Source of the DNA: a virus
DNA: 45,969 bases
Virus record (IMG/VR): IMGVR_UViG_3300028666_000048
Coordinates: 1-45,969 of that record
Direction: 5' to 3' (one strand)
Positions 10,074 through 39,836 of this stretch are shown here, piece after piece; position 1 is the stretch's first letter; each line of letters begins with the position of its first letter. Position numbers and translations under genes: made by a program. The notes beneath the pieces are model-generated. The model worked only from the letters and a program-made list of their open reading frames with translations, did no database searches and was not told where the DNA came from.

Positions 10074-13000
10074 ATGGACCCCACAACGCTTGCGCCGGGA
10101 GTGGCTCCAGCAACGCCACCAGACCCGGATTTGTTGCAGCGAATTAACCGCTTCATGCAGGGCGCTTCGCAGACTATTGCGAGGACGCCTTTCTCGTCGC
10201 TTAATTTGCCTATCCCCGGCGTGCCACAGCCTTTTGGGGAAAATAGACCAACACCGGCACAGGCTACATCCCCCGTCGCCACGAGTGGCTTTGCGGGCGC
10301 TGTTAGGTCCGCCGTACCTACCCGCTTCGCCAACACGGCACAAGGTATTGCCGAAGGTCTGCCACGGATGGTGGGTGATGTCGGTGCCAGTATGGTCGCG
10401 CCACCCCTTATGCTTGCTGACATGGGGCTTAGTGGTTACGGCGGCGCCAAAGATGCTGGTGCAGGTACTGGAAAAGCCCTCCTAGCCGGAGGTCTGCAAG
10501 CGGGCCTCGGCGCGGCCTTTGGTCCCGTAAGTAAATTCATGGGCAACGCGCCAGCCAATCTTATCGGCTCACGTGCAGCCAGTGCAGCAGCAAGTTTTTT
10601 TGATCCCGCTATTGGTGACGTCGCTGGAAAGGCCCTAAGCAACGTTGTCGGTAAAGAGGCTGCAAGTAAATTCGCGGGTTCTACTGCTGGACAGGTTGCA
10701 AAATTCATGGGTAGTCAAGCAGGTATTGCCGGCGTCGGGGAGGCACAAAACTTTACACAAGACACCGTCGAGCACGGTATTGGTCAAGCCGCAAAAGACG
10801 CCATCACACCAGAAAACATCTTTGGCCTCGCTGCGGGACAGGCGGCGTTCTTGCCCATGACGGCAGGACATATGCTCGCCGAAAGTGGGCATAGCGCACC
10901 GCAAGATCCCCAGACACGGATACTTAATCAATTTCTAGAACAGAAATCCAATCCAACTCCTGTAGCCCCAGTCAAGACCTCCCTTGACACCAATGCTCCA
11001 GTTGCCCCCAAGTCAGAAGCCAAAGTTGCGCAATCCACTTTCGACCAAGTTGCGGGCCTTGGGTCTGCGTCAACGGTTGGCCCTCACTTTTCTTTGGTAA
11101 ATCCTTTTGGTGTTGACTTTAGTAGTCAAGCCACCATGTCGCCACCGTTGATTTTGGACCGGATTTTGGCTGGTGAGATTACACCGACGAATGCAGAGAG
11201 TAATGCCCCAAACCATGCAATTGTTAAGATTCTAAAAGACGCCTTTGTGGATCAGTCTGCACTGTCGAATGGCTATGTGGATATGAACCAAGTTGGGCAT
11301 TTGGCAAATCTTGCGGACCTACAGGCGCGTGGGTTGCCCCTCACAGCACCGCAAATGGCGGCTTGGGCAAAGTTATCACCAAAGCAGCAAACGGGTGCAC
11401 AAGTTGCGGCAAAAATCTTGAATGACCCTGTTGGGACACTTGGCGGTCCGGCGCCCGACACGGAAAATTACCAAGGCAACACCGTCGAGCATGGTGGCTT
11501 GAATCCTGGACAGTGGGAAGTACAGCCTCTTGGACCAGACATGTTTTCTAGATTTGTCACACGTAGTGCTGGGAATCTTATGACTAAGTGGAATAGACCG
11601 ATCACGTCGGTCGAAGATGCAGCTTCGCTAGTGCATGCGGTTAATGATTTCACGGGGTATGTTGGAGACTTTTTGAACCAGAATGGTTTTGGGCCAGCTT
11701 TACAGGAACAGATGGCCAAAAAAGGTCTATTTACGCCGATCACGAAGGAAAGTTTACAGGAGAAATATGACATTTTCCGAGGTGAGTATTTGAGTAATCC
11801 AGATGGCGAGTCTGCCGCTAGAACGCTTCAATGGGTTAAGAATCAGATTCTTCTTCACGCGCAATCGGCCAAAGAGGCGATGGTTAGTGTACCTGGGTTT
11901 GGCGAACAGGCCATGCAACCGAAGGCTGGTATTGCAGAGCGTGATCTGGCCGCGGAGACGGCGTTTAAGGGCGCGCTGGACAAAGTACCACCGCCGATGC
12001 AGGAGGTGTTGACGAATCAGTATTTAAGGTCAAGAAAAGAGAAGGCGCAGGCTAGTGGAAATGCTAATTGGTCGCTAACGAATTACCGTAGTCGCGTGGC
12101 AGAGGCTATAAACACGCTTCGACCGGAGGACTTGGAAAAGCTCAAGACCTTGCCTATGACTGAGCCAGGGCCCGTGACTATTACGTCGAAGGAAGAACGC
12201 CGTCCGATTTTTGACAAGAATAAATATCTTGTGGAGCAAGAAAGGCAACAAGGAACGTTGCCGGGTATAGCGCCGAAGGTTGAAAGTGGGTATAAGACTG
12301 GCCGAACGAAGGCGGTAACAATGCCCCTGTTTGAGTCGCAGGCGCCAGCAAAGGTGGATATGTCGCAGGTAAGAACTGTGTTGGATACGATTCCTGTGAA
12401 TTTAACGGATCGGGAGGGTCGCCCTATTCGAACGAATCTTGGAAAGGTTGTTTTTGAACCGTTGCAAGATACCGAGGCTAGTTGGAGCGCAAGACAGTTG
12501 AAAAACCCGGAGGTGCAGCAGAATATTCGTGACTCGTTATATCCTAACGAGACGACAGAGGAAGAGAATGTTGGTAAGAGGGAGAATAATATTATTGCAC
12601 GGAACTTTACTGGCACACTCGTTACGCCGAGTGAGACTTTGGCAGGAATGTCTCCACGAGACTTTCAGCGTGCCGTGGTGGCACAGCTTGACAATCGTGG
12701 TGGGAATATTGATCGGTCTAAGGTCTGGACGAATCGCATGGATCGCTTTGCCACCTTGAGTGGTAAGACGAGAGAACAGGTTATACAAGATGGTAGTGGC
12801 GAAGCGTGGTTGAGGAATTTTGCTCGTATCGCGTCCGAGGGCACTATGGCCGAACGCCGCCAGTGGGCGGATCAGAATGGTTTTCAAGGACAGAAATGGG
12901 GTGAAGTCACAAAGTCCATGATTTCCGCAGACGCTGGAAAACGGACACTTTGGAAGGCTAGAATGCTTGGTTTACAGCCGAAGATTGGCGTTACTGCTGA

Positions 13001-16000
13001 CACGATTAAGCAAGAACTCTCGCCGTCCGCAGAGCCCGTAAATCGCCCAGTTAAGACGGATTTTAAGGGCTTCGTGCGGGATAGTCTGCTGAATCGAGGT
13101 TACCAACCCGAGGTGGCGGAGAATATGACATCGTATGTCCAGAAAATGGCGGATCACTTCGGCTGGTTGGATAATGTTAACTTTGCCACTTTGACGGACA
13201 CTGCGGGAGTCGCGGACGCTGTGCATAAGCAACTTAAAGTTCTTGGTATGCACCTTCCCGCAGAAACTATGGTTGGCGGAAAGGCTATTCGTAATCCAAT
13301 TATTGCGGCGGCGGAACAGGATCTTGTAGGGCGTGGTGGTTATGGGCCATTGAATACATTCTTTAAGTTAACGGTCTTGCCACACGAAGCCTACCATGAT
13401 CTTTATAGCAAGATCGTTAATGATCCTAACTTCAAGCCACTAAACGAGGACATGCAGACAATCGTGGATAGTGTACATAGCATGGAGAAAAATGGCAGTA
13501 GTATGTCTCCGGACGAGCGCGCTATGTCCATGACGGCTTTTGTTGACCTGATGATCCCGAGGCAATATGCACGTGATGCAAATGGAAAGTTAATCCCCGA
13601 GGTCCAGGGCTTTATTAACGCGGCTTCGGCAGACCCAAAGGAGTGGGCGGCTTCTATGTTTCAATTTGCCACGGCGGGACTTGGCGCAAAATTAGCGGAA
13701 GGTGAGAAGGGCGGTGCAGACTTTGCGCGAGTAGCGCGTGATGGTGTAGATGCGCTTTCTTGGTTCAGTCCAGATACGATCTCTTTCCTACGCGGGCAAT
13801 ATCGTTATTCTGGTGATATTCTTGGAAGTCTACAGCAGCTTTTGGATGATCCAGATTACCGGGCGTCGAAGGGGTTACAGTATGACATTGCGAAGGAACG
13901 GCCGTATGGTCTACGTGCTGGTGATCAAAACTCTGATGTGATTAATCGCCAAACATGGACTAAAGACGGCAAGGGAGAATTATCGTCCCCTGGTCCAGTC
14001 CCCTCCCTCCCACGCCCTGCGGCTAAGGCTGGGAGTGAGGCTATTCCAATTCCGCCAACGGCCAGTGTTGGTGTAAGAACACGGTCTGCTGCGGAGGCAG
14101 CGTTAAGGATAGCGAATACACCTTGGACACCACAAAGTGGCGTTACACCACGTGTGGAAGAGCCATCCTATGTCCGGGTTTTACGACAGCTTTCCCAAGT
14201 CCACCCGGAGATTGAAAATGCCATGCAGACGGTACGGCAAATTATCTCCAACATGCAAGGGGGTAGTCTTACACAACCGGCGTCGATTGACCTATCCGAT
14301 GTGAAAGGGACCAAGAGCCTTATGTCCTCTCTTGGGGGTGAACCTGATTTTGGTGACGAGGGGGCTATGTCGGCCTTTAAGAACCCGGTAGATATTGCGC
14401 TACAGGGCACGGAGGCAGCGAAGAAAACACAGCGTGCGTGGCTTATGCGCATGTTTGCTCCAAACAGCTTGCAGGGACCAGATATGCAAAGACGCGGGTA
14501 TGGCGTTGTTGAGGATAGTAGACAGAATGGTTCTCGCCTCTGGTCCAATGCGCGAAGCTCAATGCAGTTTATGTACGATAGCATCCTCCAGCGGTCACAG
14601 AAGACTGGGTCGTTTGGACGAAAGGAATTGGACCCAAATAGTGGGTATGCGAGATTTCTACAGGCTGGACTGGATGAGGGCTTTAATGGCCCCGTGTCAC
14701 AGGCACTGCAAAAGCTAGCCCTTGTACAGCAGCGGCAGGGTGGTATAGACTTGTCGTCACAAGCACCTTCTCAGTTAGAGAATGGTTTGACTATCCAACA
14801 GGTCGTGGCAGATGCCGTTAAGGGCTTACCGAAAGAGCAGGCGGCATTCGTAGTTAGTGCAGTGAAAGATATGAACAAGGTGTCAATGGCGGGGCAGGCT
14901 AAAATCCTAGACGCCAAGACGTTGAAGTTCAATGGCGAGTTGGGGCTTTTGGCTATGAAAATGAACCCACAGACCGTCACAACGGCTAAGAGTGCAATGG
15001 AGCATGGGCAACTTGTTATGGCTGCGGCGCGCGGAGATGCACAAGCAATGGATACGCTCAAGATGCGCATGGCAGCTAAGGAGCTTTCTCCCGAGTTTCT
15101 ACAAGCGGCGCTGCCGTATGCACAACATAATATTGCTACCCTAAAGGCGTTGACAGCGACGTTTAAGCAACAAGGGCAATTCCTTTCGGAGCGTCGGTTT
15201 GGGCAACATGTTATCTCTTGGACGCCTAATGATTGGAACCCTGGTGATCCCAAGGGTGGGCAGGGGTTTAAGACGGCACAAGAAGCCAAAGACTTTGTGG
15301 AGGAACTCATCGCTACGGGTATTGCACCAGAGACGATTAAATATCTTGACAAAAATAAAGAAGATATCGACACCTTTGGCATGAGTGATATTGAAGGTGT
15401 TGAAGGCTGGAAGAAAGTTGCGTTGGCCAATGAACAAGCTAAGATGGACGCAATTTTAAAGGCCGATCCAGTGAATGGGCCAAAGTTGGTTGCAGAGTTA
15501 TCAGAGCAGTTTGGTTTGCAAAAGAGTTTCAACAACTACGCTACGACTAATGGCCTTCAAAAGTTAACGAACTTTAAGCGTAAGTTTGCCCCTGGTCGGG
15601 AGTATATTAATCCCGTCGCGACGATGAATGAGTATGCCGCCTCTGTGGCACGAGGGACTTCTATTTCCAATGGGAAGGTGAATCATGCGCTGTATCAACA
15701 GGAAATGAAGATGGCTGGCTTGAACGATATCGCGGCAGATCAAGATGCCATGTTTAAGTCAAATCTCACCCCGACGCCGGAAACTGCAAAGGCCGTGGTG
15801 GCTGGCGGGACGGCGTACTTTATCGCCTTGGATCTTGCACGGTCTTTAATTGATTCTACCACACCTGGGACTATTGGGTTGCCCCTTCTACACCGGGAAA
15901 CGGGGAGCCTTCCCAAGTCCCTAAAGCTGCTTAAAGATGGCATGACGGAGACGGCTAGGAACATCATGGACACGAAAGCGTTTAATGCCTCTGCGGACAG

Positions 16001-17654
16001 GGGAAAGTTCATGACCGAAAGTTCCCTTGCACAGGCGCAGAAGGGTTCGGTGCAAGATCGTCGAGATGTGATTAATCACTTTCTGCGGAAGGCCAATGAC
16101 GATGGTGTTACGACGAGCTTTATGCTCCAGGACACACTTGGGACAGATACAACGCATATGAACCTGGGGACTATGGGCCGCGAAGGTGTGTTTAGTGGAA
16201 CTAAGGCGGGAGACATCGCGTCGTCGCCGTTTTATAATGTGTCGAAAATGCTACTCAAGACGCATAGCTTTTTGCCTACTTTGGCAAACCGATTTTCCCT
16301 GCATGCTGCCCTTGGTGCAGCTTATGACCAGGGACTTCGCGGTGATGCGATGTATAATCGAGCTATGACACTGTATGACCAAATGTCTATCGCGCCTGGG
16401 AAGATGAATAAGTCACCGATCTTGGCACACTTTGGTGGTAGTGAGCCCGGTCTTGGTGGAGACATGCGCCGCTCGGCAGTTGCACAGGTGTCAATGATGC
16501 AGCAGTTTGGTTTAACTAGCACTTTCTCAATGCTCCACATGATGCGAGATGCAGCGATGCAGACGCCAGGGTTGACACAGCAACAACGAGTGAATGCAGG
16601 AAAGGCGGCTGTAACGAGTGTGCTGACGAATGTCTCGTTAGCGGGCGCGCTCGGCCTTCCAGGTCTGGGAATTGCCTATAAGCTCTACAACGGTCTCTTT
16701 CACAAGGATGCCGAGGCGGCTACGAGAGAAGCACTCCAGGGCGGCTTTAACAGCTTATTTGGCACCGATGAGGAGAGTGGCCACTTGTTTGCCGATACTG
16801 TTATGAATGGTTTAGCGAATAGACTCACGGGCCTTGACTTTGCTGGCCGCTCTGGTGTGTCCAGTCTTTTCGGCATTGGACCTAGTAATGACGCAAGTAT
16901 GTGGGACGTGGCGGGTGGTGGTGTTTCTATTATTCCCACGTTGTATCAAGGACTTAGCGACGTGACGGCCGGGAAGCCGTGGCTGGGTATGAAAGAGATC
17001 GCACCACACAGTCTCAAGCCATTCGTCGAAATGTCAGGTAATTATAAGCAATTTGGCGACATGCGGTTGATGGACCAGAACAACAATCTCTTGATGAAGC
17101 CTAACGCTGCACAGGCTATTGGTTACGCCCTTGGGTGGCAGCCGGCCAGAGTGCGCGAGGTAAAGCAGGAACAGCGATTACAGACCACAAGCCAAGACAA
17201 CTATGAAATTGGTCGGGAGGCACAAATTGCCCAACACGCTAGGAATGTAATTCATGGTCAACCACAGAGCGTTTTGCAAGAGGCGTATAGTCGGCAATTC
17301 CAACCTGGTTTTGATCCTAAGTCTTTTATCGACAGTGTGTTGGAGCGCGCTGCCGACATGCAGACGCAAAAAGACCCAATGTCCGAGGGCACGGCATTAA
17401 ACGCGCCGTCCCAAGAGGCCATTGGGTCTACCTTTGACAATCCTCGACAATCCGAAGTTGCCCGTGTGCTTCTAAAAGCAAAACTTGGAGCTACTTTAGG
17501 GGGTGCGTTTGGCGCGGGACTTCCGAACCAACAGGAGTTTCTGGAGGCTGCGCTTGTTGACCAACTTCGGCAACAGCGCGGGATGTCTCGACCGGATGCA
17601 CAGGCTTGGGCGGCACGGCTGATGGGACATTTCCCTGGTCAGGTGGCGCGCTAA
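10074..17654 (+). CDS. Giant internal virion (ejection) protein with a metalloprotease-like motif
   Basis: At 2,526 residues this is the largest gene, one sixth of the genome. It begins four bases after the previous stop. The N-terminal 260 residues are Gly/Ala-rich with membrane-type segments. Residues 1104-1108 read HEAYH in the context LPHEAYHDLY, matching the HExxH zinc-metalloprotease signature; PKEWAASMF about 100 residues later could supply a third, Glu, ligand. Hydrophobic segments recur near residues 1906-1925 and 2178-2210. The last 500 residues resemble large polyvalent-protein-associated domains of phage-injected proteins. It ends the rightward unit; a weak hairpin (AAGGC/GCCTT, 17653-17670) overlaps its stop. 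Injection into the host is inferred. Confidence 0.75.
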   Translation: MDPTTLAPGVAPATPPDPDLLQRINRFMQGASQTIARTPFSSLNLPIPGVPQPFGENRPTPAQATSPVATSGFAGAVRSAVPTRFANTAQGIAEGLPRMVGDVGASMVAPPLMLADMGLSGYGGAKDAGAGTGKALLAGGLQAGLGAAFGPVSKFMGNAPANLIGSRAASAAASFFDPAIGDVAGKALSNVVGKEAASKFAGSTAGQVAKFMGSQAGIAGVGEAQNFTQDTVEHGIGQAAKDAITPENIFGLAAGQAAFLPMTAGHMLAESGHSAPQDPQTRILNQFLEQKSNPTPVAPVKTSLDTNAPVAPKSEAKVAQSTFDQVAGLGSASTVGPHFSLVNPFGVDFSSQATMSPPLILDRILAGEITPTNAESNAPNHAIVKILKDAFVDQSALSNGYVDMNQVGHLANLADLQARGLPLTAPQMAAWAKLSPKQQTGAQVAAKILNDPVGTLGGPAPDTENYQGNTVEHGGLNPGQWEVQPLGPDMFSRFVTRSAGNLMTKWNRPITSVEDAASLVHAVNDFTGYVGDFLNQNGFGPALQEQMAKKGLFTPITKESLQEKYDIFRGEYLSNPDGESAARTLQWVKNQILLHAQSAKEAMVSVPGFGEQAMQPKAGIAERDLAAETAFKGALDKVPPPMQEVLTNQYLRSRKEKAQASGNANWSLTNYRSRVAEAINTLRPEDLEKLKTLPMTEPGPVTITSKEERRPIFDKNKYLVEQERQQGTLPGIAPKVESGYKTGRTKAVTMPLFESQAPAKVDMSQVRTVLDTIPVNLTDREGRPIRTNLGKVVFEPLQDTEASWSARQLKNPEVQQNIRDSLYPNETTEEENVGKRENNIIARNFTGTLVTPSETLAGMSPRDFQRAVVAQLDNRGGNIDRSKVWTNRMDRFATLSGKTREQVIQDGSGEAWLRNFARIASEGTMAERRQWADQNGFQGQKWGEVTKSMISADAGKRTLWKARMLGLQPKIGVTADTIKQELSPSAEPVNRPVKTDFKGFVRDSLLNRGYQPEVAENMTSYVQKMADHFGWLDNVNFATLTDTAGVADAVHKQLKVLGMHLPAETMVGGKAIRNPIIAAAEQDLVGRGGYGPLNTFFKLTVLPHEAYHDLYSKIVNDPNFKPLNEDMQTIVDSVHSMEKNGSSMSPDERAMSMTAFVDLMIPRQYARDANGKLIPEVQGFINAASADPKEWAASMFQFATAGLGAKLAEGEKGGADFARVARDGVDALSWFSPDTISFLRGQYRYSGDILGSLQQLLDDPDYRASKGLQYDIAKERPYGLRAGDQNSDVINRQTWTKDGKGELSSPGPVPSLPRPAAKAGSEAIPIPPTASVGVRTRSAAEAALRIANTPWTPQSGVTPRVEEPSYVRVLRQLSQVHPEIENAMQTVRQIISNMQGGSLTQPASIDLSDVKGTKSLMSSLGGEPDFGDEGAMSAFKNPVDIALQGTEAAKKTQRAWLMRMFAPNSLQGPDMQRRGYGVVEDSRQNGSRLWSNARSSMQFMYDSILQRSQKTGSFGRKELDPNSGYARFLQAGLDEGFNGPVSQALQKLALVQQRQGGIDLSSQAPSQLENGLTIQQVVADAVKGLPKEQAAFVVSAVKDMNKVSMAGQAKILDAKTLKFNGELGLLAMKMNPQTVTTAKSAMEHGQLVMAAARGDAQAMDTLKMRMAAKELSPEFLQAALPYAQHNIATLKALTATFKQQGQFLSERRFGQHVISWTPNDWNPGDPKGGQGFKTAQEAKDFVEELIATGIAPETIKYLDKNKEDIDTFGMSDIEGVEGWKKVALANEQAKMDAILKADPVNGPKLVAELSEQFGLQKSFNNYATTNGLQKLTNFKRKFAPGREYINPVATMNEYAASVARGTSISNGKVNHALYQQEMKMAGLNDIAADQDAMFKSNLTPTPETAKAVVAGGTAYFIALDLARSLIDSTTPGTIGLPLLHRETGSLPKSLKLLKDGMTETARNIMDTKAFNASADRGKFMTESSLAQAQKGSVQDRRDVINHFLRKANDDGVTTSFMLQDTLGTDTTHMNLGTMGREGVFSGTKAGDIASSPFYNVSKMLLKTHSFLPTLANRFSLHAALGAAYDQGLRGDAMYNRAMTLYDQMSIAPGKMNKSPILAHFGGSEPGLGGDMRRSAVAQVSMMQQFGLTSTFSMLHMMRDAAMQTPGLTQQQRVNAGKAAVTSVLTNVSLAGALGLPGLGIAYKLYNGLFHKDAEAATREALQGGFNSLFGTDEESGHLFADTVMNGLANRLTGLDFAGRSGVSSLFGIGPSNDASMWDVAGGGVSIIPTLYQGLSDVTAGKPWLGMKEIAPHSLKPFVEMSGNYKQFGDMRLMDQNNNLLMKPNAAQAIGYALGWQPARVREVKQEQRLQTTSQDNYEIGREAQIAQHARNVIHGQPQSVLQEAYSRQFQPGFDPKSFIDSVLERAADMQTQKDPMSEGTALNAPSQEAIGSTFDNPRQSEVARVLLKAKLGATLGGAFGAGLPNQQEFLEAALVDQLRQQRGMSRPDAQAWAARLMGHFPGQVAR

Positions 17655-17914: not shown

Positions 17915-18661
17915 TTAAAGCCAACGAACGAAGTTAGGGTGTCGAAGAAGGCCGGTTTCTACAAAGCGTTTCTTTCCTTCGACTTCAAACTGACGGCCAC
18001 GATATTTCTCTTTATTGTTCCAAATGTCTGCGCGCTCCTCGTTGTCCCAGCCACCACCTACACGCGCGCCACTTTGGCAAACAACGGTGCCGAGGGTGTT
18101 CTCAAACTTCCCCTGTCCCTCCTCGAATTCACAGGCCGTCTCTACACCGACGACGACATTCTTTTGTCTATAGAGAGGTGTGTCTACAATTCCGCGACTA
18201 AAGCGAAAGACAACACCCTCGTAGTCTCCATTTTCCACAAAGCGATTCCAGATACTTGGGAAGTCGAAAATAGGAAAGTTGTCGACGAGGATAAAACTTG
18301 GTGGTAGGCGTTTAAGGATTGCCCGCATCATGGCATACCGCTCCTTATACGGGCGCTCCGTGAAATCAACGCCCTCTGCACTCCAAAGATCAAAAGCAAA
18401 GGTCTTGTTGGTAATTTTTGGGTCTTGTGCCCAGCTTGTGCCGAACATAAGTTCGCCAATGATGGTAGCGTTAACCCCCTGTTGTGCCTTAAAGGCGAAC
18501 TGGGAGAGTTCTCGGCCCGTTCGAGTAAAGCAAGTTGCCTGCCCGTTTTCGATTTCAAATCTTGCCCACCAGCCGTCGTACTTTAGCTGGAGCGTGTCAC
18601 AACCCGCTTCTCGCGCCGCCTGGAAGTTACTGTCGATATAATGTTGTCGTGTGGTTCTCAT
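17915..18661 (-). CDS. ATP-dependent DNA ligase, short form
   Basis: This 248-residue enzyme would seal nicks with ATP during replication. Visible motifs are the adenylated lysine in KYDG (residues 27-30), the conserved Glu in IIGELMFG (E70), motif III FAFDLW (88-93), motif IV EGVVFRF (148-154) and a Lys (K167) in the position of motif V. The remaining 70 residues could form a minimal OB fold. It is shorter than T7 ligase (359 residues) but has all nucleotidyltransferase motifs. Its ATG overlaps the helicase-like gene stop (ATGA). Confidence 0.88.
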   Translation of the reverse strand: MRTTRQHYIDSNFQAAREAGCDTLQLKYDGWWARFEIENGQATCFTRTGRELSQFAFKAQQGVNATIIGELMFGTSWAQDPKITNKTFAFDLWSAEGVDFTERPYKERYAMMRAILKRLPPSFILVDNFPIFDFPSIWNRFVENGDYEGVVFRFSRGIVDTPLYRQKNVVVGVETACEFEEGQGKFENTLGTVVCQSGARVGGGWDNEERADIWNNKEKYRGRQFEVEGKKRFVETGLLRHPNFVRWL

Positions 18662-19881
18662 ACTGGCTTCTTCAATCCAACGTATTCTTTGGTTATGCCG
18701 GCAGAATCTGTCTGACTGAATCTAAAAACTCTATCTGTTGTGACGAGATGGAGTAATACTTTGTCGAAGTTCTCCTCGTCGAGGTCTTGCCACATGATTG
18801 TGCGCAGCCTTTTAGTAACGATAAAGTTAATTTTGGTAGCGACACCGTGCAGTTTGACTTCTGTAGTGGGCGAGGCCCGCAAAATGTCAAGCAATTTGGT
18901 TGACGCAGCATTAAGTTGATTTTTCCCCATGCTTTGAAATACACGGGATAGGTTTTGTTCAACAAGGGTAAGTATCGCGAGCGCGCCGGTAAAGTCGTCA
19001 GGCCGCAGTACGAGGTCCGTCCGTTGGGATAGCGCAACCAACATAGCAATTTTAAGGGCCTGGATGTGTTTTGTTTCATAATAACCCTTTGTGTTTGGGT
19101 CTTTTGGGATATCTAGTTTTGTATACCAGTCTGCATAAAAATCTCGTGTCTCAGGAAGCCATGTAAATGGTCCCCGAACATTTTGCAATGCGCGTCCATA
19201 AAGCACGGCGCGCTCCCAACACTGTTGCATGTCAGGGGTAATTTTAGGAAAAGGTATGCGACCAGCTTTTTCACTTTCATAGACAAAGATCGCACGCCTC
19301 GAAAACCCGCCGGAGATAATATCCGCCTTTAGGTAGTTGGTGATCCATTCTGGTGTCGTGCAGGCGATAAGATTCAAGAAGGGACCACGGATGATACTAC
19401 AACCTTTATTTTTGGTTTTGTGCTCGTAGTCCGTTTGCTTATCGTAAACATCAGTCAAAAACCCAATCATTCCTGCTCCGCTGATTTGTAGGAATTCGCT
19501 AAGCTCGGAGGCGCAAACAATGAGAGGGCTATATATCCGTTGTCGGGCATAAGACTCTGGAAGTCCTTCCATAGCTCTTTCTTGGTCAACCATGTCAAGA
19601 ATAAGTTGCTCTTTAGACACGCACTCCGCAGAGAGTGGGACGTTTCCAATTTCCAACAACAACCTTTCTGCGCTGTGCATTGCAGAAGTTTTACGATTTC
19701 CCGCATCTCCGACGAGAACAATGTAGAGATTGGGATAAATCGTGAAATACTCCATGTTGATCCAGACGCGTCGCGAAACCACACTTGAAAGTGCGAGGAG
19801 TCCGCAAAAAGCATGGTAAGTGGGGTGCGCTTCGTTTCCGCTAGTAAAGGTTCGGTAGTCCTGGAGGAAGTTGTTTGGCAC
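18658..19881 (-). CDS. P-loop ATPase, DUF3987-like, probable replicative helicase
   Basis: A 407-residue protein with a Walker A-like loop GDAGNRKTS (58-66), where Arg replaces the usual Gly before the Lys. Strands FLNLIACTTPEW and a GGFSRRAIFVYE element follow (about 165-215), the pattern of DUF3987 helicase-like proteins seen in phage replication blocks. The C-terminal third looks like a winged helix (from about residue 330). It lies between polymerase and ligase, so it is the best candidate for the replicative helicase. No primase (TOPRIM or archaeal type) is recognisable here or elsewhere in the window. Confidence 0.75.
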   Translation of the reverse strand: MPNNFLQDYRTFTSGNEAHPTYHAFCGLLALSSVVSRRVWINMEYFTIYPNLYIVLVGDAGNRKTSAMHSAERLLLEIGNVPLSAECVSKEQLILDMVDQERAMEGLPESYARQRIYSPLIVCASELSEFLQISGAGMIGFLTDVYDKQTDYEHKTKNKGCSIIRGPFLNLIACTTPEWITNYLKADIISGGFSRRAIFVYESEKAGRIPFPKITPDMQQCWERAVLYGRALQNVRGPFTWLPETRDFYADWYTKLDIPKDPNTKGYYETKHIQALKIAMLVALSQRTDLVLRPDDFTGALAILTLVEQNLSRVFQSMGKNQLNAASTKLLDILRASPTTEVKLHGVATKINFIVTKRLRTIMWQDLDEENFDKVLLHLVTTDRVFRFSQTDSAGITKEYVGLKKPV

Positions 19882-19887
19882 GGCGGA

Positions 19888-20226
19888 TTAGTCTGTTGCA
19901 TATTTAGGTGTGTGCAGAAGGGCTAGCGTTGTGTTGTCATGGTCCTTTTGGAGACCGTGCGCGCAGATAGCTTTGTAGACGGCGAGACGTAGGGCTGCAA
20001 TATTAGTTGCGGTGGTCTCGATGGATGGGTGCCGGTTGTGGTAGGTAACGCTCGTGATGTCGACGCGGTAGCCGAGGTTGTCTCCGTAAAGGATAAGGGC
20101 ATTACAGAGTTCTTCAAAGACAGCGTTCGCTTCCACTTCGGGGAGTTGAGCTGTGGGCTGTGAGCGGGCTTTGACAAAGGGATCTGTGTCGAGTTTGATG
20201 GATACATCTTGGACAATTATGTTCAT
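19888..20226 (-). CDS. Hypothetical replication-block protein
   Basis: A 112-residue alpha/beta protein with no motif I recognise. Its ATG overlaps the polymerase stop (ATGA) and it ends six bases before the helicase-like gene, so it is translated with both. No transmembrane segment or zinc site. Its location suggests a replication accessory factor or a small Holliday-junction-type nuclease, but there is no sequence evidence for either. Confidence 0.6.
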   Translation of the reverse strand: MNIIVQDVSIKLDTDPFVKARSQPTAQLPEVEANAVFEELCNALILYGDNLGYRVDITSVTYHNRHPSIETTATNIAALRLAVYKAICAHGLQKDHDNTTLALLHTPKYATD

Positions 20227-22694
20227 AATGCTGTTTTTGTGTCTTTCCAGTTTGGCCCTGTGCCGCCACTGAAGGGGATAGTTATTTCAATTCCGTGGAT
20301 GATGATTGGGACTTTAAACCAGCGCTTGAGTTGTTCGATAGCCCACGGGCGATAGCTTGCTCCAAACTGTCCGCAGAGAGCGTCGTGCACCTGCAAGAGT
20401 GGCTCAACAAATAGAGCGTTTCGTTTAGTTCTATTGACTGGGTCATACCACAAGTTGTGCAACGCACGGTTACAGACGTAAGTTGTATTGCACTGCGGTT
20501 CGAAAGCAAGTGCTTCACGCACCACACTTGGGTCAGGTCGTCCATAGCGAATAGCGCCAAACTTTCGCCGAAAACCAGCGGCAGTTTGTATGAATCCTTT
20601 GTCACGAAGTTCACGCTCGATCCAGGAAGTACGGAGATCGGGATTGTAGCGGAGCTTGTAGAGCCACTGGTACACAGCGGCGTCGGCTCGGGGGAGGTCG
20701 ATAAGTCCATCGGAGTCTTTGAAGATTGTTGCACTAAGTTTCTCTGCTTCCATGCCATAGTTCGTTCCGTGCTGTACACGCTTCATGCAGAGGTATTTCC
20801 AGTCACCTGGGCGACCCTCCGCATCGCGGTCGTCGGAGAATTTGATACCGTCCGTTAGCTGCTTAAGTAGCTGTCGGGACACATTGTTAATTTTTGCCGG
20901 GTCCTCCCCACGCTCTTTAGCTTCAAGCATGAGGTATAGGACTTTGGCCGGCTTGATGCCCGCTTTGTAGTCGTCAAGCATCGTGGAGGCACCGAGGGCG
21001 GCAAGGTCCGCGGCAACGGTCCAACCATCTGCACCTTCAAGGTCGATTTGCCAAAAATCCGAGCCAACGTCGGCGATAAATACGTCGCGAAGTTCTTTTG
21101 TTTGATTCTGGAGGTTAGTACCGCTGCCTTCCCACTTGAGTAACCCAGACTTTGTAAAATACGGTTCAAGTGCCTGTGATTCACTACTAGAAAGTCTACA
21201 AGTGTTCGTCCCGACCAGATTGTAAGAACAACGCAACCGCCCATCAGTGTTCGTTGTAAGTTTTCCAATGTCGCTATTGCGCGTTCGTTTAGCCACGAGT
21301 TGGATGAGTACCTGAAGCACGTGATTGTGTTCCTTCTGATAATAACGGAGGAGCACTTCTTCTTTCGTTGTCTTTCCATATTTTGCATAGGGCTTGTAGC
21401 CTAAGAAGTCGTAGAGGAGCCATTGTTTGTCGGGGGTACTTTTGGCGTTGACTTCCCGGCCGACCATGTTGTTAAGTTCAAGTTGTAGTGTTTTGATTTC
21501 CTTCTCGACCACTTCAAGGTGCGTATGAAGTCGTGCAATGTCAATGCGACAACCACGAAGCTGCATATAATTGATAGCAGGCAACAGAGAAGTATTAAAG
21601 CGATAGTGCTCAGCACTTCGCGGGATTTTCTTAAGTAACGTTTCTTGGGCTTCATCGCATTCAGCTGTAACAACACAATCTGTTGCATTATAAACAAGCT
21701 CGGCATCACCACCAATGCCGCGTTGGTCTTTGTAGTAAGGTTGATCTGTGTATAAACTAGCTTGCAAATCCAGACCCTTGTCCATTTCGGGAAAGAGTTC
21801 AAAGTGCTTGAGCATCGTGTCGCCAACGATGTTGTTGATTATTATTTTATGTTTCCAATGAAGAACGAAGAACTCGTAGAGGGCATTTTGCAACACTTTC
21901 TCCACGTTTTTATCGGCTAAAAGCCCCGCTACTTCGCGCCAGACAATGGCTTCGTCGGTCTCATTCCAGTAATGTGCTCCCCCGACCCAGAAGGGGATAA
22001 CGAATGCGCTGGTTGGTCCGGTGGCAATTCCGAGCATGGTGACTCCCACGTTATTGGCCCAACCTTCAATGTCGATATAGATTCTCCGTCGACTAGATCG
22101 GATTTCGTTGATGAGTCTACAGACATCTTCAACATTTGGTCTGGTGGTAAAATGCCTTTCTGGGAGCACCAAAGCGGGGTTAGCGGAGTGTCGTTTAGCC
22201 TTCTGTACGTCTGCCCGCAATAAGGGCAGGTCACTAAATACTCTGAGAATGTAGGCCGGATGAAAAGCGGCGAGACACTTAACAGCAAATGCTTCGCTCC
22301 AGTAAAGACTGCCCCTCCATGTACCGATGTTCGCGTCTGTCCCCCAGGGGTGGGTAATGTGTAGGGGTGTATTTCCCAATACCAAGAGAATGTTGGGTTT
22401 AAAGACTTGGAGGTCAGCTTGTAGCTTTTCCGTTCCAGCGGTGATTTCTGGTCCTGTGAATTCAAACGATGTGATGTCATTAGAGGGCGGGCGTTGTTGA
22501 CAAACATTGCCAAAGAAAAGTTGGTCTGGGACAAGGTTTATATCCTCCAGGACGCTCTTTAGGAGCTTCCCACTGTGACCAACGAAGGGCTCACCAAGTA
22601 ATTCCTCGTCTTCACCAGGCGCTTCGCCAACGACGGCAATGCGGTACTGGGAGGGTTGGTACTTGGGTTGTTTATTCGGGACTAGGATGGGCAT
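20223..22694 (-). CDS. Fusion of uracil-DNA-glycosylase-like domain and family A DNA polymerase
   Basis: An 823-residue protein. Residues 15-170 match the family 4/5 uracil-DNA glycosylase pattern: GEAPGEDEE (23-31), NVCQQRPPSN (63-72) and FHPAYILR (144-151); the N-terminal CxxC of Fe-S family 4 enzymes is absent. Residues 203-345 are a 3'-5' exonuclease: DIE (208-210), NALYE (270-274, with Glu where Asp is usual) and YNATD (335-339). The polymerase has motif A around D551 (DLEGADGW), motif B K638...Y646-G647 and motif C VHD (769-771). His642 occupies the position equal to E. coli Phe762. Similar fusions are known from phages such as SPO1 (from memory). Start overlaps the methyltransferase stop. 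Confidence 0.92.
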   Translation of the reverse strand: MPILVPNKQPKYQPSQYRIAVVGEAPGEDEELLGEPFVGHSGKLLKSVLEDINLVPDQLFFGNVCQQRPPSNDITSFEFTGPEITAGTEKLQADLQVFKPNILLVLGNTPLHITHPWGTDANIGTWRGSLYWSEAFAVKCLAAFHPAYILRVFSDLPLLRADVQKAKRHSANPALVLPERHFTTRPNVEDVCRLINEIRSSRRRIYIDIEGWANNVGVTMLGIATGPTSAFVIPFWVGGAHYWNETDEAIVWREVAGLLADKNVEKVLQNALYEFFVLHWKHKIIINNIVGDTMLKHFELFPEMDKGLDLQASLYTDQPYYKDQRGIGGDAELVYNATDCVVTAECDEAQETLLKKIPRSAEHYRFNTSLLPAINYMQLRGCRIDIARLHTHLEVVEKEIKTLQLELNNMVGREVNAKSTPDKQWLLYDFLGYKPYAKYGKTTKEEVLLRYYQKEHNHVLQVLIQLVAKRTRNSDIGKLTTNTDGRLRCSYNLVGTNTCRLSSSESQALEPYFTKSGLLKWEGSGTNLQNQTKELRDVFIADVGSDFWQIDLEGADGWTVAADLAALGASTMLDDYKAGIKPAKVLYLMLEAKERGEDPAKINNVSRQLLKQLTDGIKFSDDRDAEGRPGDWKYLCMKRVQHGTNYGMEAEKLSATIFKDSDGLIDLPRADAAVYQWLYKLRYNPDLRTSWIERELRDKGFIQTAAGFRRKFGAIRYGRPDPSVVREALAFEPQCNTTYVCNRALHNLWYDPVNRTKRNALFVEPLLQVHDALCGQFGASYRPWAIEQLKRWFKVPIIIHGIEITIPFSGGTGPNWKDTKTAL

Positions 22695-24157
22695 TAGGTA
22701 AATTGGATGTTTGGGTCCAGGCGCTTGTATGCGTTCTGTACATTTTCGACTAGCTTGTGATGGTGGCTGTCTTTGATTTCAAAGCTAATTGGCACTAGAC
22801 CTAGCGGGATAGCTGCGAGAGCTGCGCTACCAACTCCGGCGTAAGGATCAAGTACAGTCTGTCCAGGCAGCGCAATAGCTCTGTAAATCCATTGCCAGAG
22901 AAGGGCGGGTTTGGCAAAAGGGTGATCGAGTTCGTGGGTGGCGGGGCCGCTCCAAACGTTCCTTGGTTGTTGACTAAGGAGGGTGGCGTTGCCTTTTCGA
23001 AGGACCATAGCCAGTTCGCTTGTCTTGGTCCAGTTAAAGCCCGCTGCAAGGTTTCTGCAAGGGCTTGTTTTGTCCCAGATAAGTGGCCAGCGCTGAACTT
23101 TGAAGCCAACTTCTTCGGCAGCGTGACGTAACTTTTCCCAGTGATGTATGTCGCACCAGAAGATACAGAAACCGTTAGGACGCAGGATTTTGAAGGCGTG
23201 GAGGACAAATTTGGGGAAATCTGCAATATTGTCTTCGATCTGATGCTCTTGCGCGACATCTTCCGCGCCGCTGATGTAGTCCGGTTCGATGCCATAAGGT
23301 ATATCCGTTACGATGTGATCTATACTTTCCCACGGCATTGCGGCCATGAGAGTAAAACAGTCGCCATGTTGAACTAAGGTCGTGAGTGGGATTACTGTAG
23401 GATTCTGGTTGCCTTGTAAAGCCTGTCCAGGTATTTCATCCACGCTTGGTGCTGCAACACCGCCGCCGCTTCCACCTGTGGTTGTGGTGGCAAAAAAATC
23501 TTCCGCACTTTCGACGGGCGTGGTGCCACCATGCAAGAGTTCGTCAACTTCTTTCTGCACAACGGGCTTACCGGTTTGGACTTTGCTCGTGATGAAAGCG
23601 GCAAGTTTCTTTTGTCCCTCTTTCTCCCGCCGCAAGATAAGGACTTGGAGTGCGTCTCTAATCCCCGTGCACTCGTGGATTTCCTTATCCCCGCTCCGTA
23701 GGTATTTTGCAAGCGTAATGGCGTAGGTAACGCTGGCACGCGAAATGCCAAGGAGTTCCCCCGTCGCTGCTTGGGACCAGCTAGTAAGGCTTTTGTGCAA
23801 GATCGCATTACGCGCCGCCTCTGTGTTGGCCGTGTCGATTGCAAGGATACGTTCTTTCCAGTCAAAGTCCTTCCGTTGGATATTTTCTTCATACTCTAGT
23901 TGCCTAAGTTGGACGTCGTTCAGGGTTTCATAAAACACCACGGCGATTTCAGTTTCCTTCAAGATCTCGTGAGCGCGGAGACGACGACCGCCAGCGACAA
24001 GTTTCTTTGCCTGATTTACCACAATGGGTTGTAAAAGACCATGCTTCGTGATGGACTCACAGAGCCCCTGCATGTCGCCATAGTCGTTACGAATACGGCC
24101 TTCGATGTTAATTTCCCCAAGTGGGATGTAGATTCGATTAATTTGTCTGGGTATCAT
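22694..24157 (-). CDS. ParB-like domain fused to a DNA N6/N4 methyltransferase
   Basis: A 487-residue protein. Residues 8-150 are ParB/Srx-like: GLLQPIVV (40-47), LVAGGRRLRAHE (53-64), EENIQRKDFDW (90-100) and a helix-turn-helix near 125-150. Residues 258-480 are an amino-methyltransferase of the beta type by motif order: catalytic DIPY (285-288, a variant of DPPY), a Lys-Pro motif (HPFAKP, 412-417), then the AdoMet loop DPYAGVGS (437-444). A Gly/Thr-rich linker joins them. It may protect phage DNA or mark it for replication. Its neighbours are replication genes and no restriction nuclease is paired with it. Confidence 0.88.
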   Translation of the reverse strand: MIPRQINRIYIPLGEINIEGRIRNDYGDMQGLCESITKHGLLQPIVVNQAKKLVAGGRRLRAHEILKETEIAVVFYETLNDVQLRQLEYEENIQRKDFDWKERILAIDTANTEAARNAILHKSLTSWSQAATGELLGISRASVTYAITLAKYLRSGDKEIHECTGIRDALQVLILRREKEGQKKLAAFITSKVQTGKPVVQKEVDELLHGGTTPVESAEDFFATTTTGGSGGGVAAPSVDEIPGQALQGNQNPTVIPLTTLVQHGDCFTLMAAMPWESIDHIVTDIPYGIEPDYISGAEDVAQEHQIEDNIADFPKFVLHAFKILRPNGFCIFWCDIHHWEKLRHAAEEVGFKVQRWPLIWDKTSPCRNLAAGFNWTKTSELAMVLRKGNATLLSQQPRNVWSGPATHELDHPFAKPALLWQWIYRAIALPGQTVLDPYAGVGSAALAAIPLGLVPISFEIKDSHHHKLVENVQNAYKRLDPNIQFT

Positions 24158-25711: not shown

Positions 25712-26137
25712 TCAAAATTCTTCTGTTTCTGTGCTTTGGTTGGCAACAGAGCGCTCTGTGTCGTCGAGGGTGGTGGGGGTATTTGTGTCACTTGGACCTT
25801 CAAAGGTGGTAGCACAAGCTTTCCAGGCACCAAGAGCAACGCGGAGGTAGGGGATGTAGAGGTCTCTACCTTCAAGCCGTAGACGAGTGCCGTAGGCCTT
25901 GTCCCACCAAGTTATGAAATCGGTGGGAGCGTCTTTGACTAAATCAATGGCCGCGTCGACAACTTTTGTGTCTGCGATATCTTTTGTGGTTACGGTCCCA
26001 CTAAAGAAAGCAGCAAGGTCCTTCCACTTATCCGCGAACCATTCCTGGCCCTTGAGCCAGTCTATGTAGTCCTTTGGAACGTCCTTGAGGGGAAGCCCTT
26101 TGTGCTTACCGAAGGGCATAGGATCACTGGAAGTCAT
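25712..26137 (-). CDS. ExoX C-terminal-like / DUF3820-type protein
   Basis: A 141-residue protein. Residues 6-34 read PMPFGKHKGLPLKDVPKDYI then WLKGQEWF, the short motif of the exonuclease X C-terminal domain and DUF3820 proteins (PFGKxKGxxLxxxPxxYLxWL). No exonuclease catalytic domain is attached. Free-standing copies occur near phage recombination genes and may bind DNA. The ATG overlaps the stop of the Sak4-like gene (ATGA), so the two are co-translated. Confidence 0.7.
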   Translation of the reverse strand: MTSSDPMPFGKHKGLPLKDVPKDYIDWLKGQEWFADKWKDLAAFFSGTVTTKDIADTKVVDAAIDLVKDAPTDFITWWDKAYGTRLRLEGRDLYIPYLRVALGAWKACATTFEGPSDTNTPTTLDDTERSVANQSTETEEF

Positions 26138-26904
26138 GGCTTTGGTGTGGATGTCGCGGGTTGAAGTTTAGGACCAAGGATACCCCAGATTTGGTCTGGA
26201 GTTTTGTCCGTGATGTCAATGCTGGGGTCCAGTGGAATGGAGCAGCCGAGGGAAACGTGGTAGCCTGTGGGTTTTGTACGTATCTCGAACTTGGTCTTAC
26301 CTCCGGGTTGGGGTGTGGCCGTCATAGCCCAGACGTCGGTAAAGTAACCACCAAGGTTGTCGGCCAAGTTACCGGGCATGTGGATTCGATAGCGATTGGC
26401 GCCGGTGATCTCGTCCTTGTCAACCTTTTGGTGGCTGGTCCAGACTACCATTTTACCACTTGCGCGAGTTAGGGCTACGATCCGTAAGAAGCGTGATCCC
26501 AATGTATCGTAATCCGTGAGGCGGATTTGGGGCTCAAGTACATCTTGCCGGAGTTTAGCACCGAGGCCAGCTTTTTCAAGTCCCGCGATGATGCTCTGTT
26601 TAACGCACGCCGCAAGTTGAGTAACGCCATCAATGCAGATTGTCTTAACGTCGGGACTGGCGATGGCTTCCTTGAGTTCCTTTTCGATTTTGTCATAGCG
26701 TTGTCCTTCCGGCACGTCGTCTACTTGGGCGAACCAGAATTTCTTATTTGGATTAATACTAACGGCAGAGCTAAGGTTCTTGTCAAGGTCGAGAACGAAG
26801 GGGTCAGGAAAAGCCATCATTAGACGGGTTTTACCAACTTTTGGTTCTCCAACAACAAGAACGGCAAGGTTCTTTGAGGTTTGGTAAGCTGTTGAGGATT
26901 GCAT
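26134..26904 (-). CDS. Sak4-like RecA-fold ATPase (AAA_24 type)
   Basis: A 256-residue protein. The Walker A motif is GEPKVGKT (19-26); a strand ending in Asp (TICIDGVTQL, about 83-92) is a Walker B. Further on come the sensor-like VVWTSHQ and the GxYFTDVWAM strand. This is the pattern of phage nucleotide-binding proteins (AAA_24) and of Sak4 single-strand annealing ATPases. It lies beside the Cas4/RecB-like nuclease, so the pair is likely a recombination module that processes and anneals phage DNA ends. Confidence 0.82.
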   Translation of the reverse strand: MQSSTAYQTSKNLAVLVVGEPKVGKTRLMMAFPDPFVLDLDKNLSSAVSINPNKKFWFAQVDDVPEGQRYDKIEKELKEAIASPDVKTICIDGVTQLAACVKQSIIAGLEKAGLGAKLRQDVLEPQIRLTDYDTLGSRFLRIVALTRASGKMVVWTSHQKVDKDEITGANRYRIHMPGNLADNLGGYFTDVWAMTATPQPGGKTKFEIRTKPTGYHVSLGCSIPLDPSIDITDKTPDQIWGILGPKLQPATSTPKP

Positions 26905-27328: not shown

Positions 27329-28264
27329 TCAAGCTAAAGGGCTCCAGGTCACGGGACGAAAAGCGTTGCTGTTAAGCAAGGTCTCTCGGATTAAAGGCGG
27401 CTGGCGACAAACATCGGCATACTCGCAGACGCCGTATTTGCCGACGCACCACTTTGTATGCTTTGGCCAGTCGTCTCGGGCGTCCATATTGATGAGGTCA
27501 CTGACGATAGTTTGTGTGTCATGCTCCCACTCCCCTACTAGGGCTTGTTCAATGGGGATAATTTGACGAATGGGCTCAAAGGCTTTTCCTGTTTTTGTTG
27601 GTTTACGAAACGCCAGGGCGTTGACACAGAAGCCGTCAACGACAACACTGAGGAGCCGCTGCACAGCCCAGACGTAGCCAAAGACTTGACTCGACAGCTC
27701 GAATTCCTTGAAATAGGAAGGTCCAAGCATGGAGGTCGTCTTATGGTCCATGATGTAGAAGCGACCTTCTCTTGTGTAGATTAGATCAATTCTCCCCGTC
27801 CACATGACTTTGATGGTCCTACCCTCGACCTCGATTTCGCAAAGCGGGAGGGCAAACGGGACTTCGACCGCGGGCTGACCTGTGGGAAGCTTGTAAACAC
27901 TAAACGCCTCGATGGGATAAGTGGCGTTGTAGTTACGGATGAAGTCCAGAGCTGTTGCGTAAGTGCGATAGTCACCTTCGCCAGGAGTCCAGTCACGGAA
28001 AACGGTTTCTGCACGCTGGAGCATGAGAAGCTCTGTGCCCGTTTGGCCCAGGCCGAGTTCGCTTTGTGGGATCACGTTAGGGTGAAAACGATAGCGGGCG
28101 TCTAGGATTTCATGTATCCGCTTGCCAAATCCCAGCGCCGTCCGCTCTTCATTCCCCTCGCGCTTGTGGACGATGTAGTAGTTTGCACTCCTTGGGCACG
28201 TGGTGAAGCGCTCAAGACTGCTATTGTCGATAAAGAGCGCGTTGTCAATCAGTGGTAGTTTCAT
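27329..28264 (-). CDS. PD-(D/E)XK nuclease, Cas4/RecB-like, with Fe-S cysteines
   Basis: A 311-residue exonuclease. Visible motifs are H51 (GFGKRIHEILDARY), GRID (D160), IMDHK (D173-K175), and Q193 in the SSQVFGY helix: the complete RecB-family active site. C23 (TTCPRS) with C273, C280 and C286 (WCVGKYGVCEYADVC) fit the one-plus-three cysteine 4Fe-4S layout of Cas4 and AddB. It is somewhat longer than Cas4 and no CRISPR array is present, so a recombination or DNA end-processing role is likely. Confidence 0.87.
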   Translation of the reverse strand: MKLPLIDNALFIDNSSLERFTTCPRSANYYIVHKREGNEERTALGFGKRIHEILDARYRFHPNVIPQSELGLGQTGTELLMLQRAETVFRDWTPGEGDYRTYATALDFIRNYNATYPIEAFSVYKLPTGQPAVEVPFALPLCEIEVEGRTIKVMWTGRIDLIYTREGRFYIMDHKTTSMLGPSYFKEFELSSQVFGYVWAVQRLLSVVVDGFCVNALAFRKPTKTGKAFEPIRQIIPIEQALVGEWEHDTQTIVSDLINMDARDDWPKHTKWCVGKYGVCEYADVCRQPPLIRETLLNSNAFRPVTWSPLA

Positions 28265-39256: not shown

Positions 39257-39418
39257 ATGTCCACCGCGGGGATAAAGCAAACCGTTATACGTCTCAAGGT
39301 CCAGACAAAGAAGTCTTTGTTTGTCCCTTATGGTCGTGTCTTTATCCCCGTTGGTCGTCCACGCTCTCTAACCGAGACCCTCCAGGGCACGCAACATGGC
39401 CGTTCTTTCCAACACTGA
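39257..39418 (+). CDS. 53-residue hypothetical protein
   Basis: A short basic gene starting one base after the previous stop and overlapping the next start by 23 bases. The product is Lys/Arg/Gln/Val-rich with strands (TVIRLKVQTKKSLFVPYGRV), which looks like a small beta hairpin rather than noise. Translational spacing fits its neighbours. It is unsupported by any family recognition. Confidence 0.45.
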   Translation: MSTAGIKQTVIRLKVQTKKSLFVPYGRVFIPVGRPRSLTETLQGTQHGRSFQH

Positions 39419-39836
39419 GTTGCGTAGCTCTTTTCCCGGTATTACACCAGGTTTCGTCTACACTAGCGCCCTGGTTTACGGAATCCCCACCCTTGAGTAT
39501 CTTCAAGGCCCCTTCTACGACTATTGGATTCACACCCTTGGCGGTCTTAATCTTTGGACCTCAAAGTGGGAATGTTGGGACTTTACATCCTCCTACCTTG
39601 TCGAGCTTGCAAAAGCAAATGCCTTGACGCCTGCGACTCCCACTGGCGAAACCACGCTTTCTGTTGGTCGCTGGGACTTTCACCCTGACGCTGAAAGACT
39701 CGCCGGTAACCCCACAGGTCACAGTATTATCGCTGCCATCACTGACCAGGGCCTGCGTTACCTAGATCCGCAAAATAACACTTTATGGTCTCCTTCTTCA
39801 AACGAGCTTGCCTCTACGCGGCTTTTGCTCTTTTAA
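39396..39836 (+). CDS. Cysteine-peptidase-like protein, possible lysis enzyme
   Basis: A 146-residue protein with a possible Cys-His-Asp triad in papain order: C60 in WECWDFTSSYL, H109 in TGHSIIAAITD, and D124 in YLDPQNN. The GHxIxxAIT...GLRYLDPQ pattern resembles the phage papain-like/agglutinin C-terminal peptidase group. Placed in the lysis and fibre segment, it may be a wall-degrading or processing enzyme, and no other endolysin is recognisable in the window. It might instead lack activity and bind cell-wall material. Confidence 0.5.
   Translation: MAVLSNTELRSSFPGITPGFVYTSALVYGIPTLEYLQGPFYDYWIHTLGGLNLWTSKWECWDFTSSYLVELAKANALTPATPTGETTLSVGRWDFHPDAERLAGNPTGHSIIAAITDQGLRYLDPQNNTLWSPSSNELASTRLLLF

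Follow-up and report, generated by a model that had tools for sequence, protein, structure and literature searches.

Position 762 of family A DNA polymerases (PolA; E. coli Pol I numbering) is read as an indicator of how a phage lives and how fast its enzyme works, with three recognised states. One PolA survey retained only sequences with Phe, Tyr or Leu at this position (PMC9069017), another uses three 762 groups (PMC6302109), and a 2026 preprint still gives three states (PMC13228545). Together, E710 and F762 form a steric gate against ribonucleotides (PMC9324360); the tyrosine found at 762 in the T7 enzyme contacts the beta-phosphate (PMC13228545). No report of His or Trp at PolA 762 was found in the open-access literature. 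Fusions of a uracil-DNA glycosylase (UDG) domain to a PolA are already known, and His762 or Trp762 combined with Asp710 is absent from published surveys as far as we found. Among the glycosylases themselves, the uracil pocket of the Thermus UDGa is lined by E41, G42, E47, F54, N80 and H155, and a part in catalysis has been ascribed to N89 (PMC5387724). UdgX is defined by a GEQPG motif A and a KRRIH R-loop (PMC10359453).

Architecture and genomic setting of the fusion

The whole stretch of DNA analysed here (the window) comprises 45,969 bases of an IMG/VR virus record. It encodes an 823-residue polymerase, P0001, whose parts are as follows (the basis of each assignment is given in parentheses).

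20223..22694, minus strand: UDG-exonuclease-family A DNA polymerase fusion, P0001 (translation, Pfam, PHROG_17, AlphaFold, Foldseek)
22230..22664, minus strand: family-4 UDG-like domain, residues 11-155 (Pfam UDG, phmmer to TM0511 and TthUDGa, residue mapping, domain model, Foldseek)
21585..22088, minus strand: 3'-5' exonuclease domain with DEDDy motifs, about residues 203-370, limits approximate (alignment)
20226..21557, minus strand: polymerase thumb-palm-fingers domain, residues 380-823 (Pfam, profile search to Klenow, Foldseek)

A sequence-only reading of the window had proposed such a three-part fusion, with the strand unstated, and the proposal was borne out by Pfam, PHROG_17, AlphaFold and Foldseek. 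The Pfam matches were UDG (E = 2.9e-19, residues 11-155) and DNA_pol_A (E = 3.4e-14), with the exonuclease family (exo1) at just E = 0.16. PHROG_17 (DNA polymerase) spans residues 12-821 (E = 6.6e-50), and a profile search of the PDB matched Klenow at E = 1e-57. An AlphaFold model, made with 36 relatives and without DNA, dNTP or metals, had a pLDDT of 94.0 and a pTM of 0.91. Its top Foldseek match in the PDB was E. coli Pol I (8oo6, E = 1.1e-25, TM 0.82 by target length). By sequence and predicted fold, P0001 is a family-4 UDG-like domain followed by a 3'-5' exonuclease and a family A polymerase.

The surrounding genes include the following.

27329..28264, minus strand: PD-(D/E)XK exonuclease (Pfam, PHROG)
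26134..26904, minus strand: Sak4-like RecA-fold annealing ATPase (Pfam, PHROG)
22694..24157, minus strand: ParB_N-N6/N4 DNA methyltransferase fusion, directly upstream of the polymerase (Pfam, PHROG)
19888..20226, minus strand: 112-residue protein of no known family; its gene and the stop-codon end of the polymerase gene share 4 bases (Pfam, PHROG scans)
18658..19881, minus strand: DUF3987 / PHROG_14296 primase-helicase-type protein (Pfam, PHROG)
17915..18661, minus strand: ATP-dependent DNA ligase with a KYDG motif, last gene ahead of the strand switch (Pfam, PHROG)

These genes make up an early minus-strand block in the order listed, with the polymerase between the ParB-methyltransferase fusion and the 112-residue protein. 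The methyltransferase fusion and polymerase genes overlap, start with stop, and the presence of such overlaps on both sides of the polymerase suggests translational coupling. Several relatives, too, have DNA methylase or ParB genes directly ahead of their polymerase gene. Elsewhere in the window, an ORF of 2526 residues (10074-17654, plus strand) lies within the virion gene block, and one of 146 residues (39396-39836, plus strand) has a weak match, below the cut-off (E = 0.006), to a papain-fold glutamine deamidase domain.

Active-site residues and their distribution among relatives

Residues of P0001 were mapped by MAFFT alignment with E. coli Pol I and T7 gp5. The codons that bear on the argument are listed here.

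21873..21875, minus strand: codon 274, Glu at the exonuclease metal-ligand position D424 (alignment)
21027..21029, minus strand: codon 556, Asp at the steric-gate position E710, in motif A DLEGADGW (alignment)
20793..20795, minus strand: codon 634, Tyr at R754, a triphosphate contact in Klenow (alignment)
20769..20771, minus strand: codon 642, His at F762, in motif B KRVQHGTNYG (alignment; DNA located by pattern)

The equivalences of Glu274, Asp556 and His642 with D424, E710 and F762, previously drawn by eye, agree with this alignment; Y634 at R754 and A772 at E883 had been missed. The change at E883 was rejected as notable because Ser or Ala is usual there in phage PolAs. Chance or misalignment was rejected as the source of the key residues, since motif spacing and every flanking invariant residue agree. 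In the exonuclease, four of the five DEDDy residues are canonical (D208, E210, Y335 and D339, equivalent to D355, E357, Y497 and D501), and the fifth, D424, is replaced by Glu274. The polymerase residues D551, K638, Y646, R500, Q734, H770 and D771 match D705, K758, Y766, R668, Q849, H881 and D882, and P0001 has both this family A residue set and a Klenow-like fold. The canonical PolA steric gate (Glu710 with Phe or Tyr at 762) is absent, Asp556 and His642 standing in its place. His642 also puts P0001 outside the published viral PolA groups, which have Phe, Tyr or Leu at 762 (PMC6302109, PMC9069017, PMC13228545).

Relatives were collected by two IMG/VR scans whose patterns left out positions 762 and 710. 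The scans returned 328 and at least 544 relatives, and the idea of a gene unique to this phage was rejected on those numbers. From each scan 80 relatives were fetched and then deduplicated by C-terminal sequence; the counts given here are of readable rows among them. Within the clade, position 762 is His in 123 of 127 rows (Trp in three, Phe in one) and position 710 is Asp in 104 of 125 (Glu in 20, Gln in one). Position 424 is Asp in 131 rows and Glu in three of 134, namely P0001 and the two sequences closest to it, L018 and L020. Position 754 is Arg in 76 rows and Tyr in 50, counts that are partly alignment-dependent as the position adjoins gaps; Tyr754 is found in all eight sequences of the inner subclade that holds P0001. 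The residues essential to polymerisation are conserved, namely D705 (125 Asp, one Glu), K758 (126/126) and D882 (123/123). Among representatives clustered at 50% identity, 30 of 33 have His762 and 18 of 33 have Asp710.

In a control scan of Phe762-type phage polymerases, all 66 readable rows combine Phe762 with Glu710, and Asp710 was seen, in the rows examined, solely alongside His762 or Trp762. A UDG domain is present in 54 of these 66 controls. Fusion to a UDG domain therefore does not entail His762 and was rejected as its cause; the same 54 controls, with SPO1, bear out the earlier statement that UDG-polymerase fusions occur in other phages. The further suggestion that the residue set might be new stood in part. 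No published description of it was found, but His762/Asp710 is common in a large clade and Glu424 alone is rare (3/134). To judge from these sequences, His762/Asp710 is the state of one large clade of environmental phages and is not peculiar to P0001. The three-state scheme for position 762 is thus incomplete, since His (and Trp) occupies it in a widespread clade whose members mostly have a steric-gate Asp as well.

A near-DNA search of INPHARED gave no match. In a search of a genome collection, 79 of the 80 matches listed align over little more than the UDG part, the pattern expected of free-standing family-4 UDGs. The His762/Asp710 fusion is also carried by a contig binned as Planctomycetota (L183); a host drawn from the genome collection was rejected, because this contig rests on a bin, from which a host cannot be concluded.

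A tree of the polymerase domain was computed without columns 762, 710 and 754. All His762 and Trp762 rows fell into one clade (SH-aLRT 96), which also holds one Phe762 row (L056). Four changes are needed on the tree at position 762 and three at 710. A single origin of Asp710 was rejected by an AU test (p = 0.023; post hoc, chosen once the tree was known), and Asp710 arose at least twice. Glu424 has one origin on the tree (P0001, L018, L020), as does Trp762 (L028, L032; the near-copy L029 was left out of the tree). As His762 arose essentially once, its links to other traits do not count as many independent events. The Trp762 polymerases carry the motif B IWGxCY and belong to the inner subclade of P0001 (L028, 3441-6179; L029, 2119-4857; L032, 3339-6179). 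Isolates in or beside the His762 clade are Microcystis phage Mel-JY34, Vibrio phage VS-ABTNL-3, Caulobacter phage Kuura, Polaromonas phage Tiera and Desulfofustis phage LS06-2018-MD01.

The UDG-like domain and nucleotide selection

The UDG domain was modelled alone with a pLDDT of 96.2, and Foldseek matched the model to family-4 UDGs of Thermus and Thermotoga (E ~1e-14, TM 0.73-0.79; 1l9g at E = 5.5e-15, 1vk2 at TM 0.79). The sequence-only reading had hinged in part on whether this domain has a UDG pocket. The family-4 fold was matched and all seven pocket positions are accounted for, E24, A25, E30, F37, N63, N72 and H145 corresponding to E41, G42, E47, F54, N80, N89 and H155 of Tth UDGa. The family-4 Fe-S cysteines are absent; there is no CxxC ahead of the domain, and the NxxxCRPP motif has Gln67 where its Cys would be. 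Covalent trapping of the UdgX type was rejected, since P0001 has GEAPG and no KRRIH in its translation.

Uracil excision by P0001 is plausible on these residues. One alternative goes further and takes the domain to be an active, coupled uracil repair enzyme in which excision is selected, the fused polymerase and the operon's ligase filling and sealing the gap. The complete pocket in P0001 and in 64 of 133 clade rows, the top Foldseek matches to active family-4 UDGs and the ATP-dependent ligase in the same operon all favour it. Set against this are the 44 of 133 relatives that share the architecture and keep four or fewer pocket residues, the seven changes of pocket state needed on the tree, the missing Fe-S cysteines and the lack of a recognised AP endonuclease within the window. 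Pocket decay extends to the nearest relative, the sister L018 (DCEFN-H), which weakens any claim of strong selection for excision in P0001, and we regard this alternative as a serious contender that falls short of being probable. The opposite view, to which we would give similar and still tentative credence, is that the domain does no more than bind DNA or aid processivity, or else senses uracil and stalls the polymerase, with the intact pocket a neutral retention. It accords with the repeated loss of the pocket while the fold is kept; decayed L117 (pocket 2/7) still matches Pfam UDG at 1.3e-16, and R127, S129 and D162 are at 100% in pocket-decayed copies. The UDG domain of SPO1 gp31 is likewise degenerate in motif A. 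However, a full pocket in half of a deep clade exceeds what neutrality would leave. Because the pocket decays repeatedly while the fold stays, the domain appears to owe its retention to a role different from, or additional to, excision, and uracil excision is apparently not what keeps it fused. The same decay shows that uracil proofreading, which the sequence-only reading had raised, is unnecessary for maintaining the fusion. Repeated loss of the pocket with the fold kept offers a clean test of uracil repair versus simply holding DNA. We favour a reading in which the UDG-like domain would act as a DNA-binding module ahead of the polymerase. In P0001 it could still bind, and probably excise, uracil, and with the operon's polymerase and ligase this would provide uracil repair in phage DNA; for many relatives the prediction is a catalytically dead domain with a binding or architectural role only.

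For nucleotide selection, the mapping suggests that His642 would assume the role of Phe762 (Tyr526 in T7) in the closed complex, where it would pack against the sugar of the dNTP being selected. A histidine at 762 should be able both to stack and to hydrogen-bond, and His642 may hydrogen-bond the 3'-OH or the beta-phosphate of the dNTP. Asp556 would preserve the carboxylate of Glu710 on a side chain one methylene shorter, opening space. The His platform, which marks the clade, would have come first and tolerated Asp710, which came later on two or more occasions. The change of R754 to Tyr suggests that the triphosphate grip is rearranged too. Taken together, the His platform, the Asp carboxylate and the loss of R754 would imply a sugar gate that was rebuilt rather than broken. 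Overall, we consider it likely that an uncultured tailed phage uses P0001, a product of its early replication operon, as its replicative family A DNA polymerase, and that the enzyme combines a rebuilt sugar gate with a UDG-like DNA-binding module still able to bind uracil. In the His762/Asp710 clade two residues of a well-understood enzyme have been changed by nature, which provides a ready-made experiment on how nucleotides are selected.

An altered gate could instead mean that the polymerase is adapted to a non-canonical nucleotide, as in modified phage DNA, or that it tolerates ribonucleotides. Both steric-gate residues are changed, R754 as well, and the specificity of DpoZ gives a precedent in a phage PolA (PMC8599892). 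This explanation is nonetheless improbable. Modified phage DNA had been hinted at before, but among those window ORFs that the Pfam and PHROG scans covered, many of which have no family, no base-modification biosynthesis genes were found (thymidylate synthase, hydroxymethylase, dUTPase, dCMP deaminase, PurZ or DatZ); the sole DNA-modification gene seen in the window is the ParB-DNA methyltransferase fusion. The clade is also spread over many different phages, and Asp keeps a carboxylate at 710. A broader proposal, that the His762/Asp710 clade consists of functionally distinct phage replicative polymerases whose sugar and triphosphate recognition is unlike that of enzymes with Phe, Tyr or Leu (they might, for instance, admit ddNTPs, tolerate rNTPs in part or favour an unusual dNTP), strikes us as rather unlikely when taken as a whole; on that proposal the group would have gone unnoticed in surveys that acknowledged, or kept, just F, L or Y at 762. 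In the exonuclease, D424 coordinates a catalytic metal, Tt72 polymerase with the corresponding change, D78A, retains 4% of exonuclease activity (PMC9324360), and Asn420 is also lost in L018. By contrast, Glu is still a carboxylate, and the equivalents of D355, E357, D501 and Y497 are intact. D424E probably lowers proofreading, as judged by the residues; for the inner subclade, impaired or absent proofreading is possible, and we would not lean towards it.

Relation to known polymerases and glycosylases

SPO1 gp31, from a Bacillus phage, has the same UDG-exonuclease-polymerase order in one gene as P0001 (Pfam UDG at 3.4e-22 in SPO1 exon 1), and the UDG domain is likewise shared with the 54 fused Phe762 controls. 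Unlike P0001, SPO1 has Phe762 and Glu710, as does every one of the 66 controls, and motif A of the SPO1 UDG is degenerate where that of P0001 is not. The N-terminus of the phiLo family A DNA polymerase (PDB 9qhs, released 2026-03-25) matches the P0001 UDG in sequence (6.5e-5) and in fold (4.1e-7), although this polymerase has 1142 residues; no paper describing the entry was found. E. coli Pol I Klenow shares the exonuclease and polymerase fold and the catalytic residues of the polymerase motifs. It has no UDG domain, and its F762, E710, R754 and D424 stand against H642, D556, Y634 and E274 in P0001. The family-4 UDGs (Thermus thermophilus UDGa, Thermotoga TM0511) share the fold and the seven pocket residues, whereas the P0001 domain lacks the Fe-S cluster cysteines and is fused to a polymerase.

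Several genes of the group are interrupted or rearranged. In an uncultured phage (L050/L001) the polymerase gene is split just ahead of motif A by an ORF-bearing insert (between 4674 and 4994 of L001), and an ORF-bearing insert lies likewise just ahead of motif A in Vibrio phage VS-ABTNL-3 (L178, 3159-3713). The intron of SPO1 gp31 lies at a similar place. A polymerase ORF of 1126 residues in L094 (3474-6851) has an intein-like insertion (start CITGDHEVLTPEGW, end VTGNTNY) between the codons for His762 and Tyr766 in motif B. The polymerase of Polaromonas phage Tiera (L179, 1390-3684) has His762 and no recognisable UDG, and keeps an N-terminal WRGS motif. In Kuura (L008; 3977-5086 and 5699-7381), two small genes lie between the UDG-exonuclease and polymerase genes.

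Since isolates exist, the questions of nucleotide selection and of the UDG domain are both testable. The polymerases of Mel-JY34, Kuura and VS-ABTNL-3 resemble P0001 in belonging to the His762 clade, in having UDG, exonuclease and polymerase parts and in a similar replication gene order, and those of Mel-JY34 and VS-ABTNL-3 share Asp710 with it. Unlike P0001, Kuura and VS-ABTNL-3 carry the UDG-exonuclease and the polymerase on separate genes. The three polymerases are about 25-30% identical to P0001 and, where readable, keep Asp424 and Arg754.
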